Shown here: one piece after another, positions 5,774 through 57,772 of the stretch
How the letters are laid out: the number at the start of each line of letters is the position of its first letter
How positions within the stretch are numbered: position 1 is the first letter of the stretch
DNA from: an uncultured Chitinophagaceae bacterium
GTDB lineage: Bacteria; Bacteroidota; Bacteroidia; Chitinophagales; Chitinophagaceae
Direction: 5' to 3'
Assembly: GCA_903884185.1 (NCBI GenBank)
Contig: CAISDV010000063.1
Coordinates: 1-64,000 of the forward strand
DNA length: 64,000 bases
Translations under genes and position numbers: made by a program
Notes under the pieces: generated by a model
The model's input: only the letters and a program-made list of their open reading frames with translations
Database searches by the model: none
What the model was told of the DNA's origin: nothing

Positions 5774-5822
5774 CAAATCTCCTATCCCCAATCTCGCATC
5801 CCATATCCCGCATCTCAAATCA
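5774..5822 (-). repeat. heptamer array (GATRCGR family)
   Basis: Seven consecutive 7-mers read on the plus strand as CAAATCT, CCTATCC, CCAATCT, CGCATCC, CATATCC, CGCATCT and CAAATCA. This is the minus-strand form of the GATRCGR family. The array continues imperfectly into the prs stop codon (TGA, 5825-5827), so it forms the 3' end of the prs transcript. Confidence 0.7.
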
Positions 5823-5824
5823 CA

Positions 5825-6784
5825 TCACTTCTTATCCCTCCCCCTCAACTGCGAATGAATAAAGAGGCTGGTGATACTTTTATTTTCATATGCATTCCTT
5901 ATCGCTATTGCAAAAAGGTCTGCTACGGAAAGAACTTTTATTTTTTTACTCTCCCCTCTCAGCGGGATGGTATCGCATACGATCAATTCTTCCAACACAC
6001 TGTTATCGATATTCTCGTATGCTTTTCCACTCAAAACAGGATGTGTACATAAAGCTCTTACACTTCTTGCTCCTTTTTCCTTCATTAACCCTGCACTTTT
6101 TGCGAGGGTACCACCGGTATCGCAGATATCATCTATCAAAACGATATCCCTATCCTTCACATCACCTATCACCACCATGCTCGCTATTTCGTTAGCTCGT
6201 TTCCTGTGTTTATCACAGATCACCATTTCTACATTGAAATAACTCGCAATTTCACGTACCCTGTTGGTACTTCCCACATCGGGGGCCGCAAAGGTAAGGT
6301 TTGGCAGCCTTAATTGTTCAATATAAGGGATAAAAATCGCTGAACTGTCGAGATGATCAACCGGGATATCAAAGAAAGCTTGGATTTGTGGAGCGTGTAA
6401 ATCCATGGTAATCACCCTATTAGCTCCTGCGGCTTCCAGAAGCGTGGCTACCAGCTTGGAACCAATGGCTACACGGGGCTTATCCTTCCTGTCCTGCCTG
6501 GCAAAACCATAATAAGGGATCACTGCAACGATCAGGTGGGCACTGGCACGTTTGGCAGCATCGATCATCAGCAACAGCTCCATCAGGTTATCCATGGGGG
6601 CATAAGTGCTTTGCACCAGGAAAACATAATCACCGCGGATACTTTCGAGAAAAATGGGCTGAAATTCCCCATCGCTGAACTTCTGGATATTTATTTTGCC
6701 CAGGGGGGCTCCAAAGCGTTGTGCTATCTTTTCGGCTAAGCGTTGCGACCCTGTACCGGAAAAGATCTTGACAGATGGGTTCAT
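5825..6784 (-). CDS. prs: ribose-phosphate pyrophosphokinase
   Basis: Makes PRPP from ribose 5-phosphate and ATP for purine, pyrimidine, His, Trp and NAD synthesis. The 319-residue length is normal. Signatures include FSGTGSQRLAEKIAQRFG at the N-terminus, FSDGEFQP, YYGFARQDRK, and the PRPP loop VLIDDICDTGGTLAKSAG. It is a class I enzyme. The start at 6784 precedes a short hydrophobic strand typical of the family. It is transcribed away from radC. The 173-base divergent gap contains a heptamer array. The last codons overlap another array, but the C-terminus GRDKK looks ordinary. Confidence 0.97.
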   Translation of the reverse strand: MNPSVKIFSGTGSQRLAEKIAQRFGAPLGKINIQKFSDGEFQPIFLESIRGDYVFLVQSTYAPMDNLMELLLMIDAAKRASAHLIVAVIPYYGFARQDRKDKPRVAIGSKLVATLLEAAGANRVITMDLHAPQIQAFFDIPVDHLDSSAIFIPYIEQLRLPNLTFAAPDVGSTNRVREIASYFNVEMVICDKHRKRANEIASMVVIGDVKDRDIVLIDDICDTGGTLAKSAGLMKEKGARSVRALCTHPVLSGKAYENIDNSVLEELIVCDTIPLRGESKKIKVLSVADLFAIAIRNAYENKSITSLFIHSQLRGRDKK

Positions 6785-8215: not shown

Positions 8216-8250
8216 GATACAAGATGCAGGATATGGGATGCGGGATGCGA
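8216..8250 (+). repeat. short heptamer array (GATRCGR family)
   Basis: Five in-phase 7-mers: GATACAA, GATGCAG, GATATGG, GATGCGG, GATGCGA. They end ten bases before the 3' end of the frameshifted CHU_C gene. Confidence 0.7.
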
Positions 8251-12630: not shown

Positions 12631-12784
<154 letters not shown>

Positions 12785-21117: not shown

Positions 21118-21260
21118 CCTTTCATGAGCGTTTGATGAGCCTTTCATGAGCGTCTGATGAGCCTCTCATGAGCGTTTGATGAGCCTTTCATGACGCCTTG
21201 ATGAGCATACAAACAAGCTACTTTGAGCCTACAAACAAGCAAGAAACAAGCAACAATGAG
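21118..21260 (+). repeat. 22-bp tandem repeat with degenerate tail
   Basis: Four head-to-tail 22-bp units start at 21118, 21140, 21162 and 21184; each has the form CCTTTCATGAGCGTTTGATG plus AG, with one to five changes. A fifth 22-bp unit at 21206-21227 keeps only the frame (CATACAAACAAGC... GAG), and a 33-bp variant follows to 21260. From about 21340 to 21382 a looser repeat (ATGTAAGTCGT... AAGCC) occurs twice. No gene is supported in 21065-21501. Confidence 0.8.
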
Positions 21261-21397: not shown

Positions 21398-21466
21398 GAT
21401 GGGGGATATGAGATACGGGATGCGAGATTAGAGACGATAACCGGTAATCCGCCTGGGCGGACAACT
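21398..21466 (+). repeat. heptamer array plus CCGCCTGGGCGG module
   Basis: Five 7-mers (GATGGGG, GATATGA, GATACGG, GATGCGA, GATTAGA; 21398-21432) are followed by ACCGGTAATCCGCCTGGGCG and the shared hairpin module at 21449-21460, closely matching the copy at 4340-4362. It lies directly upstream of the queE promoter. Confidence 0.7.
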
Positions 21467-21501: not shown

Positions 21502-22284
21502 ATGATCTCAACCGTTACACATACACTTCCTGTAATGGAATCTTTTTACACTTTACAGGGAGAAGGATTTCACCAGGGAAGAGCCGCTTATTTTATCCGC
21601 CTCGGTGGCTGTGATGTTGGCTGCACCTGGTGCGATGTGAAGGAGAGTTGGGACGCGTCAGCGCATCCCCAGCTTAGGATTGAAGAGATTGTTGGTAAAG
21701 CGATGCGGGCCTGCCCCGCCAAAGGCGGGGATACGGGATACGAGATACGAGATGCGGGATACGGGATGCGGGATGCGGGATTGGAGATGCAGGATACAGA
21801 ATGCGGGATCGAAGATGAGAACCAGCAACCGGCAACCAGTAACAGGCAACCAACGACTAGTAACCAGCAACCAGTAACCAGTAACCGCTTAGCAGTAATA
21901 ACTGGTGGAGAACCATTACTCCATAACCTTGACGAGCTTACACGTCAATTACATGCAGCCGGATTTGAAACAAATATCGAAACCTCAGGATCATCGCCAT
22001 TAAGTGGTGAGTGGGATTGGATCTGCCTATCACCTAAAAAATTCAAAGCACCCTTACCGGAGTTAGTGCCATTGGCGAATGAATTAAAAGTAGTGGTATT
22101 TAATAAACATGATTTTGAATGGGCCGAAAAATATGCAGTGCAGGTTTCATCTTCCTGCAAATTATACCTGCAGCCGGAATGGGATAAAGCTTCTATCGTA
22201 ACACCTCTTATTATAGAATACATTAAACAAAATCCAAAGTGGGAATTGAGTTTGCAGATACATAAGTATATTAATGTTCCATAG
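21502..22284 (+). CDS. queE: 7-carboxy-7-deazaguanine synthase with repeat-encoded insertion
   Basis: Radical SAM enzyme that converts 6-carboxytetrahydropterin to 7-carboxy-7-deazaguanine in queuosine synthesis. Residues 12-70 have ESFYTLQGEGFHQGRAAYFI and the cluster motif GGCDVGCTWCD (Cys 37, 41, 44). Family sequence resumes at about 129 with LAVITGGEPLLH and runs to the end (ETSGS, CLSPKKF, LQPEW). In between, about residues 71-128, sits low-complexity sequence encoded by heptamer arrays; without it the length is about 202, close to family norm. The insert lies between the first helix and the GGEP strand, so the enzyme may still fold. folE and a PTPS/QueD homolog are at 50-51 kb. Confidence 0.9.
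   Translation: MISTVTHTLPVMESFYTLQGEGFHQGRAAYFIRLGGCDVGCTWCDVKESWDASAHPQLRIEEIVGKAMRACPAKGGDTGYEIRDAGYGMRDAGLEMQDTECGIEDENQQPATSNRQPTTSNQQPVTSNRLAVITGGEPLLHNLDELTRQLHAAGFETNIETSGSSPLSGEWDWICLSPKKFKAPLPELVPLANELKVVVFNKHDFEWAEKYAVQVSSSCKLYLQPEWDKASIVTPLIIEYIKQNPKWELSLQIHKYINVP
21712..21885 (+). repeat. composite heptamer element inside queE
   Basis: Three modules in a row: the hairpin CCCCGCCaaaGGCGGGG (21714-21730), thirteen GATRCGR-family 7-mers (21730-21820) and nine ACCAGTA-family 7-mers (21821-21883). There is no stop in the queE frame. Three DNA units make seven codons, so the product is two sets of heptads, one of the form RDAGYGM and one of the form NQQPVTS. Both repeat families are otherwise intergenic in this window. 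Confidence 0.9.
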
Positions 22285-22286
22285 AA

Positions 22287-22408
22287 ATTTACGATTTATG
22301 ATATACGATTTACGATTTTTTTTATGCAAGATTTCTGAGTAATATTAAAAAGAAAATGCGGGTATAATAGAGTTTATTATAATCGTGCAAATCGTATATC
22401 GTAAATTT
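22287..22408 (+). repeat. inverted pair of ATTTACG heptamer arrays
   Basis: The 178-base gap after queE starts with 7-mers ATTTACG, ATTTATG, ATATACG, ATTTACG (22287-22314) and a T run. About 70 bases later 22381-22408 carries the complementary units (AATCGTG, CAAATCG, TATATCG, TAAATTT). The two arms can form a long hairpin over the queE 3' end, possibly as a terminator. Confidence 0.65.
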
Positions 22409-25565: not shown

Positions 25566-25672
25566 CCGACTACGTCATTCAGGCGGGAGTTGCTGGTTAC
25601 TGGTTACTGGTTACTGGTTACTGGTAACTGGTAACTGGTAACTGGTAACTGGTAACTGGTAACTGGTAACTG
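25566..25672 (+). repeat. heptamer array with internal unit switch, left flank of S23 gene
   Basis: The core CCGACTACGTCATTCAGGCG (from 25566) is followed by twelve perfect-phase 7-mers at 25589-25672: GTTGCTG, four copies of GTTACTG, then seven copies of GTAACTG. GTTAC and GTAAC are complementary, and the TG spacers can pair as G-U, so the transcript could fold back on itself almost completely. Confidence 0.9.
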
Positions 25673-25692
25673 GTAAAATTAAAAAAAATATT

Positions 25693-50022: not shown

Positions 50023-50050
50023 TACTATTTGAAACGAAAATACATTATTT

Positions 50051-50350
50051 AAACTGTTAGACTATCATCCTATCAATCCACAAATCCTATACATCTTACT
50101 CCGGTTTGGCGCTGATAAATTTTAAGAATTTGCTCCTTGCAGCGTCTTTTAAACTGTTAGACTATCATCCTATCAATCCACAAATCCTATACATCTTACT
50201 CCGGTTTGGCAGTGATAAATTTTAAGAATTTACTCCTTGCAGCGTCTTTTAAACTGTTAGAGTATCATCCTATCAATCCACAAATCCTATACATCTTAGT
50301 CCAGTTTGGCGCTGATCAATTTCAAGAACTCACTTCTTGTAGCATCTTTT
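50051..50350 (-). repeat. three 100-bp tandem repeats containing the folE 3' end
   Basis: Exact 100-bp periods start at 50051, 50151 and 50251, each beginning AAACTGTTAG. In the third unit, bases 50296-50350 are the genuine last codons and stop of folE. In units one and two the same region still reads, on the minus strand, as a FolE-like tail (KDAARSKFLKFISAKPE plus stop) against the real [17 protein letters not shown]. The two spare copies differ from each other at about three positions and from the real end at about a dozen. Confidence 0.9.
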
Positions 50351-50892
50351 AAAAATTCACCATCAAATGCAGAAGTAGCCGTTACGGAATTTTGTTTTTG
50401 TACGCCGCGCATCATCATGCACAAATGTTTTGCTTCGATCACAACAGCCACCCCATGCGGGTTCAGCGATTGTTTGATGGCTTCAAGTATTTCAGTGGTA
50501 AGCCTCTCCTGTACTTGCAGGCGGCGTGAATACACATCTACCACTCTTGCAATTTTACTCAGACCCGTGATCCAGCCATTGGGGATATAAGCTATATGCG
50601 CTTTGCCAAAGAAAGGAAGTATGTGGTGTTCGCACATAGAATACAATTCAATATCCTTTACAACAATCATCTCGCTCACATCTTCCCTGAACTTGGCAGA
50701 ATCAATGATCGCTTTTGCATCCTGCGAATATCCCTGCGTCATGTATTGCATGGCTTTTGCCACACGCTCGGGTGTTTTCAGCAAGCCTTCCCTTTCAGGA
50801 TCCTCGCCCAATGATGACAGCACTTTACTATACAAGCCCGAAAGTTCCGAAGTAGATTCACTGTCATATTGTTCCGTTTTCAAATAAGCCAT
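50296..50892 (-). CDS. folE: GTP cyclohydrolase I
   Basis: Converts GTP to 7,8-dihydroneopterin triphosphate for folate and 7-deazaguanine synthesis. A 198-residue FolE1 with zinc ligands Cys and His in [19 protein letters not shown], the second Cys in [14 protein letters not shown], and [16 protein letters not shown] near residue 42. Full length. Its last 18 codons are part of a 100-bp unit repeated three times downstream. The PTPS/QueD homolog lies 16 bases upstream on the same strand, so the two consecutive pterin steps are probably cotranscribed. Confidence 0.96.
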
Positions 50893-57504: not shown

Positions 57505-57526
57505 ATTACAAAATTACTGGAAAGCC

Positions 57527-57772
57527 GGTTACCGGTTGCTGGTTACCGGTTGCTGGTTACTGGTTACACGCAAGAAAAATTCATGACCAATAACGGATGT
57601 TACAATTTTATCGGAATTAAACCGGCAACTGGTAACCGGCATCTGGCAACTAGGAACCAGTTAGAGTAAAGAAAAATTCATGCCCAATAACGGATGTTAG
57701 AATTTTATCGGGGTTAAACCGGCAACCAGTAACCACCAACTGGTAACTATGAACTTGCTACCGGTAACTGCG
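57527..57772. repeat. heptamer arrays with a 97-bp duplication
   Basis: Six GGTTACC/GGTTGCT units (57527-57568), six AACCGGC-type units (57620-57661) and eight more (57717-57772). The two latter arrays are each preceded by the same ~47 bases (GAAAAATTCATG, CCAATAACGGATGTTA, AATTTTATCGG), at 57574 and 57671, so a 97-bp segment is duplicated. The last 26 bases lie inside the following minus-strand gene. Confidence 0.85.

Follow-up and report, generated by a model that had tools for sequence, protein, structure and literature searches.

The queE locus

The gene queE, coding for 7-carboxy-7-deazaguanine synthase, lies at 21502-22284 on the forward strand of the window, by which we mean the whole 64,000-nucleotide stretch of Chitinophagaceae DNA analysed here. 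Its frame of 260 residues is uninterrupted and passes through an insert of repeat DNA on the same strand (21709-21885, approximately residues 70-128), the ends of which were set by alignment and by a structural model. Three modules follow one another along the forward strand: a hairpin, CCCCGCC-AAA-GGCGGGG, read directly off the sequence (21714-21730); a GATRCGR-type array of 13 consecutive heptamers (21730-21820); and an ACCAGTA-type array of nine heptamers (21821-21886). In translation the first array gives RDAGYGM-like peptide repeats and the second NQQPVTS-like repeats. An earlier note on this DNA had described the hairpin, both arrays and the two sets of heptads within a stop-free coding region, and sequence and open reading frame (ORF) agree with that description. 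Neither array is perfect; seven of the 13 GATRCGR units are exact and six are degenerate (1-3 mismatches), and of the nine units in the ACCAGTA part three are exact ACCAGTA, six match ACCRGYA and three are degenerate. The hairpin occurs once in its exact form in the own-genome DNA examined, and a similar one, TCCGCC..GGCGGA, occurs there 12 times.

Cys37, Cys41 and Cys44, together with the GGEP motif (Gly135-Pro138), are found where the earlier note had placed them and are invariant across 42 aligned QueE sequences, in which there are 60 invariant columns in all. The NCBIfam families TIGR04322 and TIGR04508 each match the protein in two stretches, with whole-protein scores under their curated cut-offs (129.8 bits against 200, and 116.1 against 240). 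We name it QueE despite these scores because its cysteine and GGEP motifs, its fold and its alignment with relatives agree. The case carries a practical warning, since a queE gene that scores below the family cut-off in this way could be called missing during annotation.

Comparison with relatives and structural model

QueE was parsed in 107 of 109 loci from relatives, the remaining two being without a frame; some of the unnamed loci duplicate named ones, and the 80 named loci, taken alone, were all parsed. Between the last residue of the cysteine motif and GGEP there are 34 residues in 77 of these 107 loci and 53 at most, compared with 90 in the window. A comparison of this kind had been named in advance as a possible refutation of repeat capture, and its outcome supports that reading. 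Relative to the commonest loop the net gain is 56 residues, or 168 nt, so that the addition of residues stands and the figure first given for it, about 58, does not.

In an AlphaFold2 model based on the 42-sequence alignment (mean pLDDT 82.8), the insert is bracketed by a helix (residues 60-70) and a strand (residues 129-135). The pLDDT is below 50 over most of residues 83-125, with ten-residue blocks from 81 to 130 at 41-59, and outside the insert most of the blocks reach at least 90. Modelling, which the earlier note had suggested, thus depicts the insert as a low-confidence loop between conserved halves. When the model is searched against the PDB with Foldseek the first six matches are all QueE (entries 4njg, 6nhl, 5th5 and 5tgs), 4njg being at the top with an E value of 2.6e-14. 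Both halves of QueE and its conserved motifs are intact around the insert.

Repeat arrays in the window and in the genome

Two-unit GATRCGR runs occur 15 times in the window, against none in 100 dinucleotide shuffles, and two-unit ACCAGYA runs seven times, again against none in 100 shuffles. On the forward strand, GATRCGR arrays are located upstream of queE (21398-21437, a GATRCGR-type array with an ACCGGTA unit and a TCCGCC-TG-GGCGGA hairpin behind it), outside genes (12633-12737, followed by AAACTGG-type heptamers) and adjoining the ends of ORFs (8216-8250). The reverse strand has a degenerate GATRCGR array between ORFs (5780-5836), an ACCAGTA array of 12 units (25591-25675) and an ACCAGTA-type array (57515-57564). 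Apart from those of queE, no array of either kind in the window lies within a stop-free ORF of at least 150 amino acids that extends 45 nt past both of its sides, which bears out the earlier observation that the same modules are otherwise found outside genes here.

Other repeats accompany these arrays. An ATTTACG heptamer array, belonging to a further family, begins directly past the queE stop codon (22287-22318, forward strand), and heptamers of ATTTACG/ATCGTAA, ACATCGT and TTATGAG types are seen beside arrays both there and in flanks from the rest of the genome, which seems to hold several period-7 families. Between a folD-type gene and queE there is a 22-bp tandem repeat, CCTTTCATGAGCGTTTGATGAG, in four copies (21118-21206), and a 100-bp tandem repeat with three copies at 92% match is found at 50048-50353.

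The genome to which the window belongs (G000) comprises 2.95 Mb in 188 contigs, and its completeness is estimated at 100. It has 119 places with three exact GATRCGR units (67 forward, 52 reverse) and 39 with three ACCRGYA units, against a count of zero for the reversed control in the first case and for the control in the second. Only three of 147 Chitinophagaceae genomes have the GATRCGR triple, and the two others have it twice and once. A relaxed detector, run on the window and on 60 stretches around arrays, found 71 GATRCGR and 21 ACCRGYA arrays; the former number is to be read as at least 71, the DNA having been chosen where searches pointed and not as a full census. No shared array end is visible by eye in the flanks of the 71 arrays. 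The GATRCGR and ACCAGTA repeats are thus dispersed in the genome.

Arrays inside conserved genes

Fourteen of the 71 GATRCGR arrays are enclosed by the stop-free ORF of a conserved gene, and the remaining 57 were not taken as genic. The array is in the sense orientation in queE, bioA, birA, a heptosyltransferase gene, bshC, ispE, tsaD and icmF, and antisense in purM, a pseudouridine synthase gene, mutL, trpE, valS and argS. Its core spans 28-119 nt in the 14 genes. A short hairpin stands beside it in queE, bioA and bshC, and the palindrome CCTGCCTGCCGGTAGGCAGG follows it in both bioA and bshC. The capture of repeat DNA with the frame kept, as the earlier note had proposed for queE, is supported for that gene but is not peculiar to it, as GATRCGR arrays lie in the same manner in seven or more further conserved genes, the probable number being 13.

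HMMER alignments with solved homologues show a net gain of residues at the array in seven of these genes, as does the comparison with relatives for queE: 32 residues in bioA (against 6ed7), about 23 in birA (2eay), about 33 in purM (3kiz), 13 in ispE (1oj4), about 14 spread over several gaps in bshC (4wbd), 7, equal to three heptamers, in tsaD (4ydu) and about 8 in two gaps in valS (1gax). The purM loop has 41 residues in G000 compared with 5-14 in all 46 genomes that gave two pairable matches. These 46 are drawn from 58 with a purM match, our own genome being set aside and the pairing also dropping three that gave one joined match (G013, G034 and G023) and eight with partial, double or overlapping matches (G019, G033, G040, G044, G046, G051, G054 and G056). 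Inserts in argS, trpE, mutL, icmF and the heptosyltransferase and pseudouridine synthase genes are less certain. Homologue alignment gave no clear net gain at the array in argS or trpE; in mutL the array lies directly ahead of the MutL_C domain, and in the pseudouridine synthase gene it lies ahead of the S4 domain.

Several further arrays were left uncounted. Those of gldD, folB and the ORF that follows a sulfate permease gene may precede the true start. In gldD (L124:1824-2585), an ORF for a gliding lipoprotein, an antisense GATRCGR array is present in the N-terminal part, ahead of a signal-peptide-like hydrophobic stretch, and may either belong to the frame or precede the actual start. Another array, towards the 5' end of the birA ORF, was not counted as an insert, nor were four array-spanning ORFs without a family match in our scans (L198, L209, L223 and L127). 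A second in-frame palindromic repeat, with the core CCCTTGGAGGGTT and an LEGxKPSKGLE-like peptide, is seen in birA (L120) and icmF (L206). As regards gene disruption, 18 same-strand ORF pairs were flagged, and the same Pfam family was found on both sides of the array in none of the nine pairs scanned, in three of which (L210, L213 and L215) one ORF matched no family.

Each array could instead have been born locally, a heptamer that happened to occur in the gene being multiplied by replication slippage without any DNA having moved. Two papers (PMC4692102, PMC4679880) report an excess of heptamers among the simple repeats of bacteria and suggest polymerase slippage as their source, and the gain in TsaD, of exactly three units, would be in keeping with such growth. 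Against this, one heptamer consensus was detected at 71 sites and lies either way round with respect to genes, the same palindrome follows the array in bioA and in bshC, and the triple that is abundant in G000 is all but missing from the other family genomes. Arrays that arose independently would hardly be expected to agree in sequence, and for this reason we regard growth in place as unlikely and prefer the insertion of dispersed repeat DNA.

The draft state of the assembly might also be held responsible, some of its 188 contigs (C4, C39, C64 and C84) starting within arrays. An artefact of assembly or binning is scarcely credible, however, since 13 further conserved genes have arrays that keep the frame; all 14 frames are open, with conserved sequence flanking the insert on both sides. 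Moreover, heptamer arrays are found in a genome of 3.7 Mb assembled into only 3 contigs (G021), and the L039 and L040 genomes show inserts of the same kind, as described below.

Had slippage been suppressed in the genic arrays, they would be expected to be more degenerate than the rest. They are instead equal to the other 57 in regularity or more regular, with a median lag-7 identity of 0.78 against 0.71 (p 0.08) and a longest perfect run of 10.5 against 6 (p 0.03). This speaks against long-term selection for stability, and the undiminished regularity may reflect recent insertion. The same regularity would suit a switch, in which the gain or loss of heptamers turns genes on and off by phase variation, as the unit is not a multiple of three and slippage by a single unit would break the frame. 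But valS, argS, tsaD and ispE are usually essential, so that the off state would be lethal in these hosts, and there are no outer surface proteins among the 14 named genes. We consider such a switch highly improbable.

Reading frames through a heptamer array

A heptamer array runs through every frame, 7 and 3 having no common factor, so that the three frames of one strand are equivalent. Read forward, GATRCGR gives the codons GAT RCG RGA TRC GRG ATR CGR, and read backward YCG YAT CYC GYA TCY CGY ATC, with no stop among either set. All six frames of a GATRCGR array are thus free of stops, and the one requirement is a total length divisible by three. The 14 arrays as they stand have no stops in the frame of the gene; the two remaining frames have 2 and 8, and seven of these ten are in queE. 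The ACCRGYA heptamer differs in that its forward reading includes YAA, which is a stop if Y stands for T. In queE the three codons of this type all read CAA. Elsewhere C is found at that position in 82 of 202 counts (∼41%), of which the fraction alone is usable as the pattern scores most units twice. Avoidance of TAA in the ACCAGTA part of queE (three of three with C, ∼0.07) is too weak to serve as proof of translation, because some 41% of such units have C in any case.

The same loops in other lineages

The earlier note had pointed to close relatives, in which the insert should be absent. In the nearest relatives the insert of the window is indeed absent from the queE loop, but the loop is not simply empty, as L039 and L040 carry other, repeat-like DNA there and L051 a hairpin repeat. 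In L039 and L040, both from Chitinophagaceae metagenome-assembled genomes (MAGs), the QueE loop holds a short stretch of CCGTTGA-like heptamer DNA. Three CCGTYRA units are found nine times in the L039 genome and twice in that of L040, with a reversed control of zero, and in none of the genomes G000, L041 and L042; the L039 and L040 genomes yielded 27 and 30 matches to the L039 loop DNA (E up to 1), the best of them being the loop itself. The QueE loop of L051 contains a hairpin, which L052 shares in less exact form. At up to three mismatches this hairpin has six copies in its own genome, three of them exact and the queE copy included, one copy in the L052 genome, on a contig other than that of its queE, and none in G000 or the L039 genome.

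Other genes carry such repeats too. In the L039 and L040 genomes (the sister genomes G170 and G171), CCGTTGA-type repeat peptides are found in mfd, mutS, valS, purM and the genes for a NadR-type kinase, an ABC ATPase and a KDO transferase (element-bearing loci L260, L262, L265, L269, L270, L272, L274, L275 and L276), the in-frame calls being judged from the presence of the repeat peptide inside the family match. The purM site in G171, which is the L040 genome, is the very loop that is occupied in G000, and other period-7 arrays are found in that loop in G013, G034 and G007. Different repeats therefore fill the QueE loop in L039/L040 and in L051 and the PurM loop in G171, and probably also the PurM loop in G013, G034 and G007.

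The period of these repeats was examined at lags 4-13 with one threshold. Lag 7 alone was positive, in three of 81 queE loops (the window, L039 and L083) and five of 22 purM loops, where mononucleotide shuffles lead one to expect 0.00 and 0.01; at every other lag the count was zero. The threshold was of our own choosing, and the repeat-looking queE loop of L040 fell short of it. The 22 purM loops, our own included, are those parsed out of 31 loci, unparsed ones being dropped (12 of 30 with a stricter pattern). L083, from a Bacteroidetes MAG, has an A-rich period-7 stretch in its queE loop. In G021, long regular heptamer arrays are present at two loci (L313 and L314), for instance GATGTTG in 13.6 copies at 100% match at L313, and peptides similar to the translations of the G021 arrays are encoded at L315-L317.

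That several lineages have lengthened the same loops of queE and purM might mean that the loop is useful, for instance in partner binding or regulation, and has been selected. Most relatives, however, keep a short loop at both sites, and the inserted sequences differ between lineages, which a site tolerant of length explains better; selection of this kind seems to us very unlikely. Related bacteria have unrelated repeats in the same enzyme loops, a finding that suggests a continuing recruitment of repeat DNA into additional loops of proteins. A broader reading, to which we lean only slightly, is that unrelated repeat families across the Chitinophagaceae, mostly of period 7 and different in each lineage, repeatedly invade the same few permissive loops of core enzymes (QueE and PurM) and form a recurrent, convergent source of new protein loops; the success of heptamers would then lie in the fact that a unit without stops leaves every frame open. 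Loops that are hit again and again would provide natural maps of insertion tolerance in core enzymes.

Origin and fate of the inserts

We conclude, with a probability of about 0.86, that dispersed heptamer DNA has been inserted with the frame kept in queE and in other conserved genes of this genome (at least seven, probably 13), where it is most likely translated as a tolerated extra loop. That the arrays become extra loops of the enzymes is what the sequence of these genes would lead one to predict. Arrays would be copied into new sites, and most of those landing in genes would be lost by selection; the survivors would be stop-free arrays in permissive loops, with a total length that is a multiple of three. 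A removal of out-of-frame genic arrays is at most faintly indicated. Most likely the inserts are neutral or mildly costly and represent no adaptation.

Comparison with known repeat systems

Dispersed heptamer arrays have been described in other bacteria, and the comparisons made here refer to the accessible parts of the papers cited. The GGGAATC-type heptamers of Xanthomonas and Nostoc, which can form G-quadruplexes and are reported there to be under-represented in coding regions (PMC4692102), resemble the G000 repeats in forming dispersed arrays near gene ends, whereas in-frame loops in core enzymes, as found in G000, are not mentioned in that part of the text. The TAACTGA heptamers of Beggiatoaceae, cyanobacteria and some Bacteroidetes, described in what is accessible as mostly intergenic (PMC4679880), likewise appear as lineage-restricted dispersed arrays, some of them in Bacteroidetes, but TAACTGA has stops in its forward reading and GATRCGR is stop-free and lies partly inside genes.

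The tandem repeats of Borgs offer a likeness of another kind, in that repeat DNA within ORFs gives rise to disordered protein segments. In the accessible part of that report (PMC9879509), all units within ORFs are divisible by three, extracellular proteins are enriched among the hosts and the same unit seldom recurs at a second locus. The G000 unit, in contrast, is 7 nt long and so not divisible by three, is common to many loci and resides mostly in metabolic, tRNA or repair enzymes. The arrays thus run counter to the expectation that genes tolerate only repeat units divisible by three.

Among the matches listed in a search of open-licence full texts, neither titles nor the starts of abstracts report heptamer arrays that lie in frame within Bacteroidota core genes. 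The closest likeness is to the Rickettsia palindromic elements (RPE; Ogata et al. 2000/2002), for which the accessible parts of two reviews (PMC10969869, PMC2229807) describe in-frame capture of dispersed repeats by conserved genes at high frequency. They are given there as stem-loops of ∼105-150 bp with terminal inverted repeats, inserted within 19 reading frames, and an RPE-bearing guanylate kinase is reported to be translated and active. As far as these descriptions go, both systems consist of short dispersed repeat DNA that lies between genes and also in frame within conserved genes, 14 of 71 arrays being so placed in G000. The G000 arrays are nevertheless not RPEs by structure, as their core is built of tandem heptamers, varies in length (28-119 nt) and occurs in either orientation in a member of the Bacteroidota, whereas an RPE is a single stem-loop unit of ∼105-150 bp in Rickettsia. 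They would constitute a second large case of such capture, in another phylum and built from heptamers, and would show that the incorporation of repeat DNA into conserved genes is no quirk of intracellular parasites.
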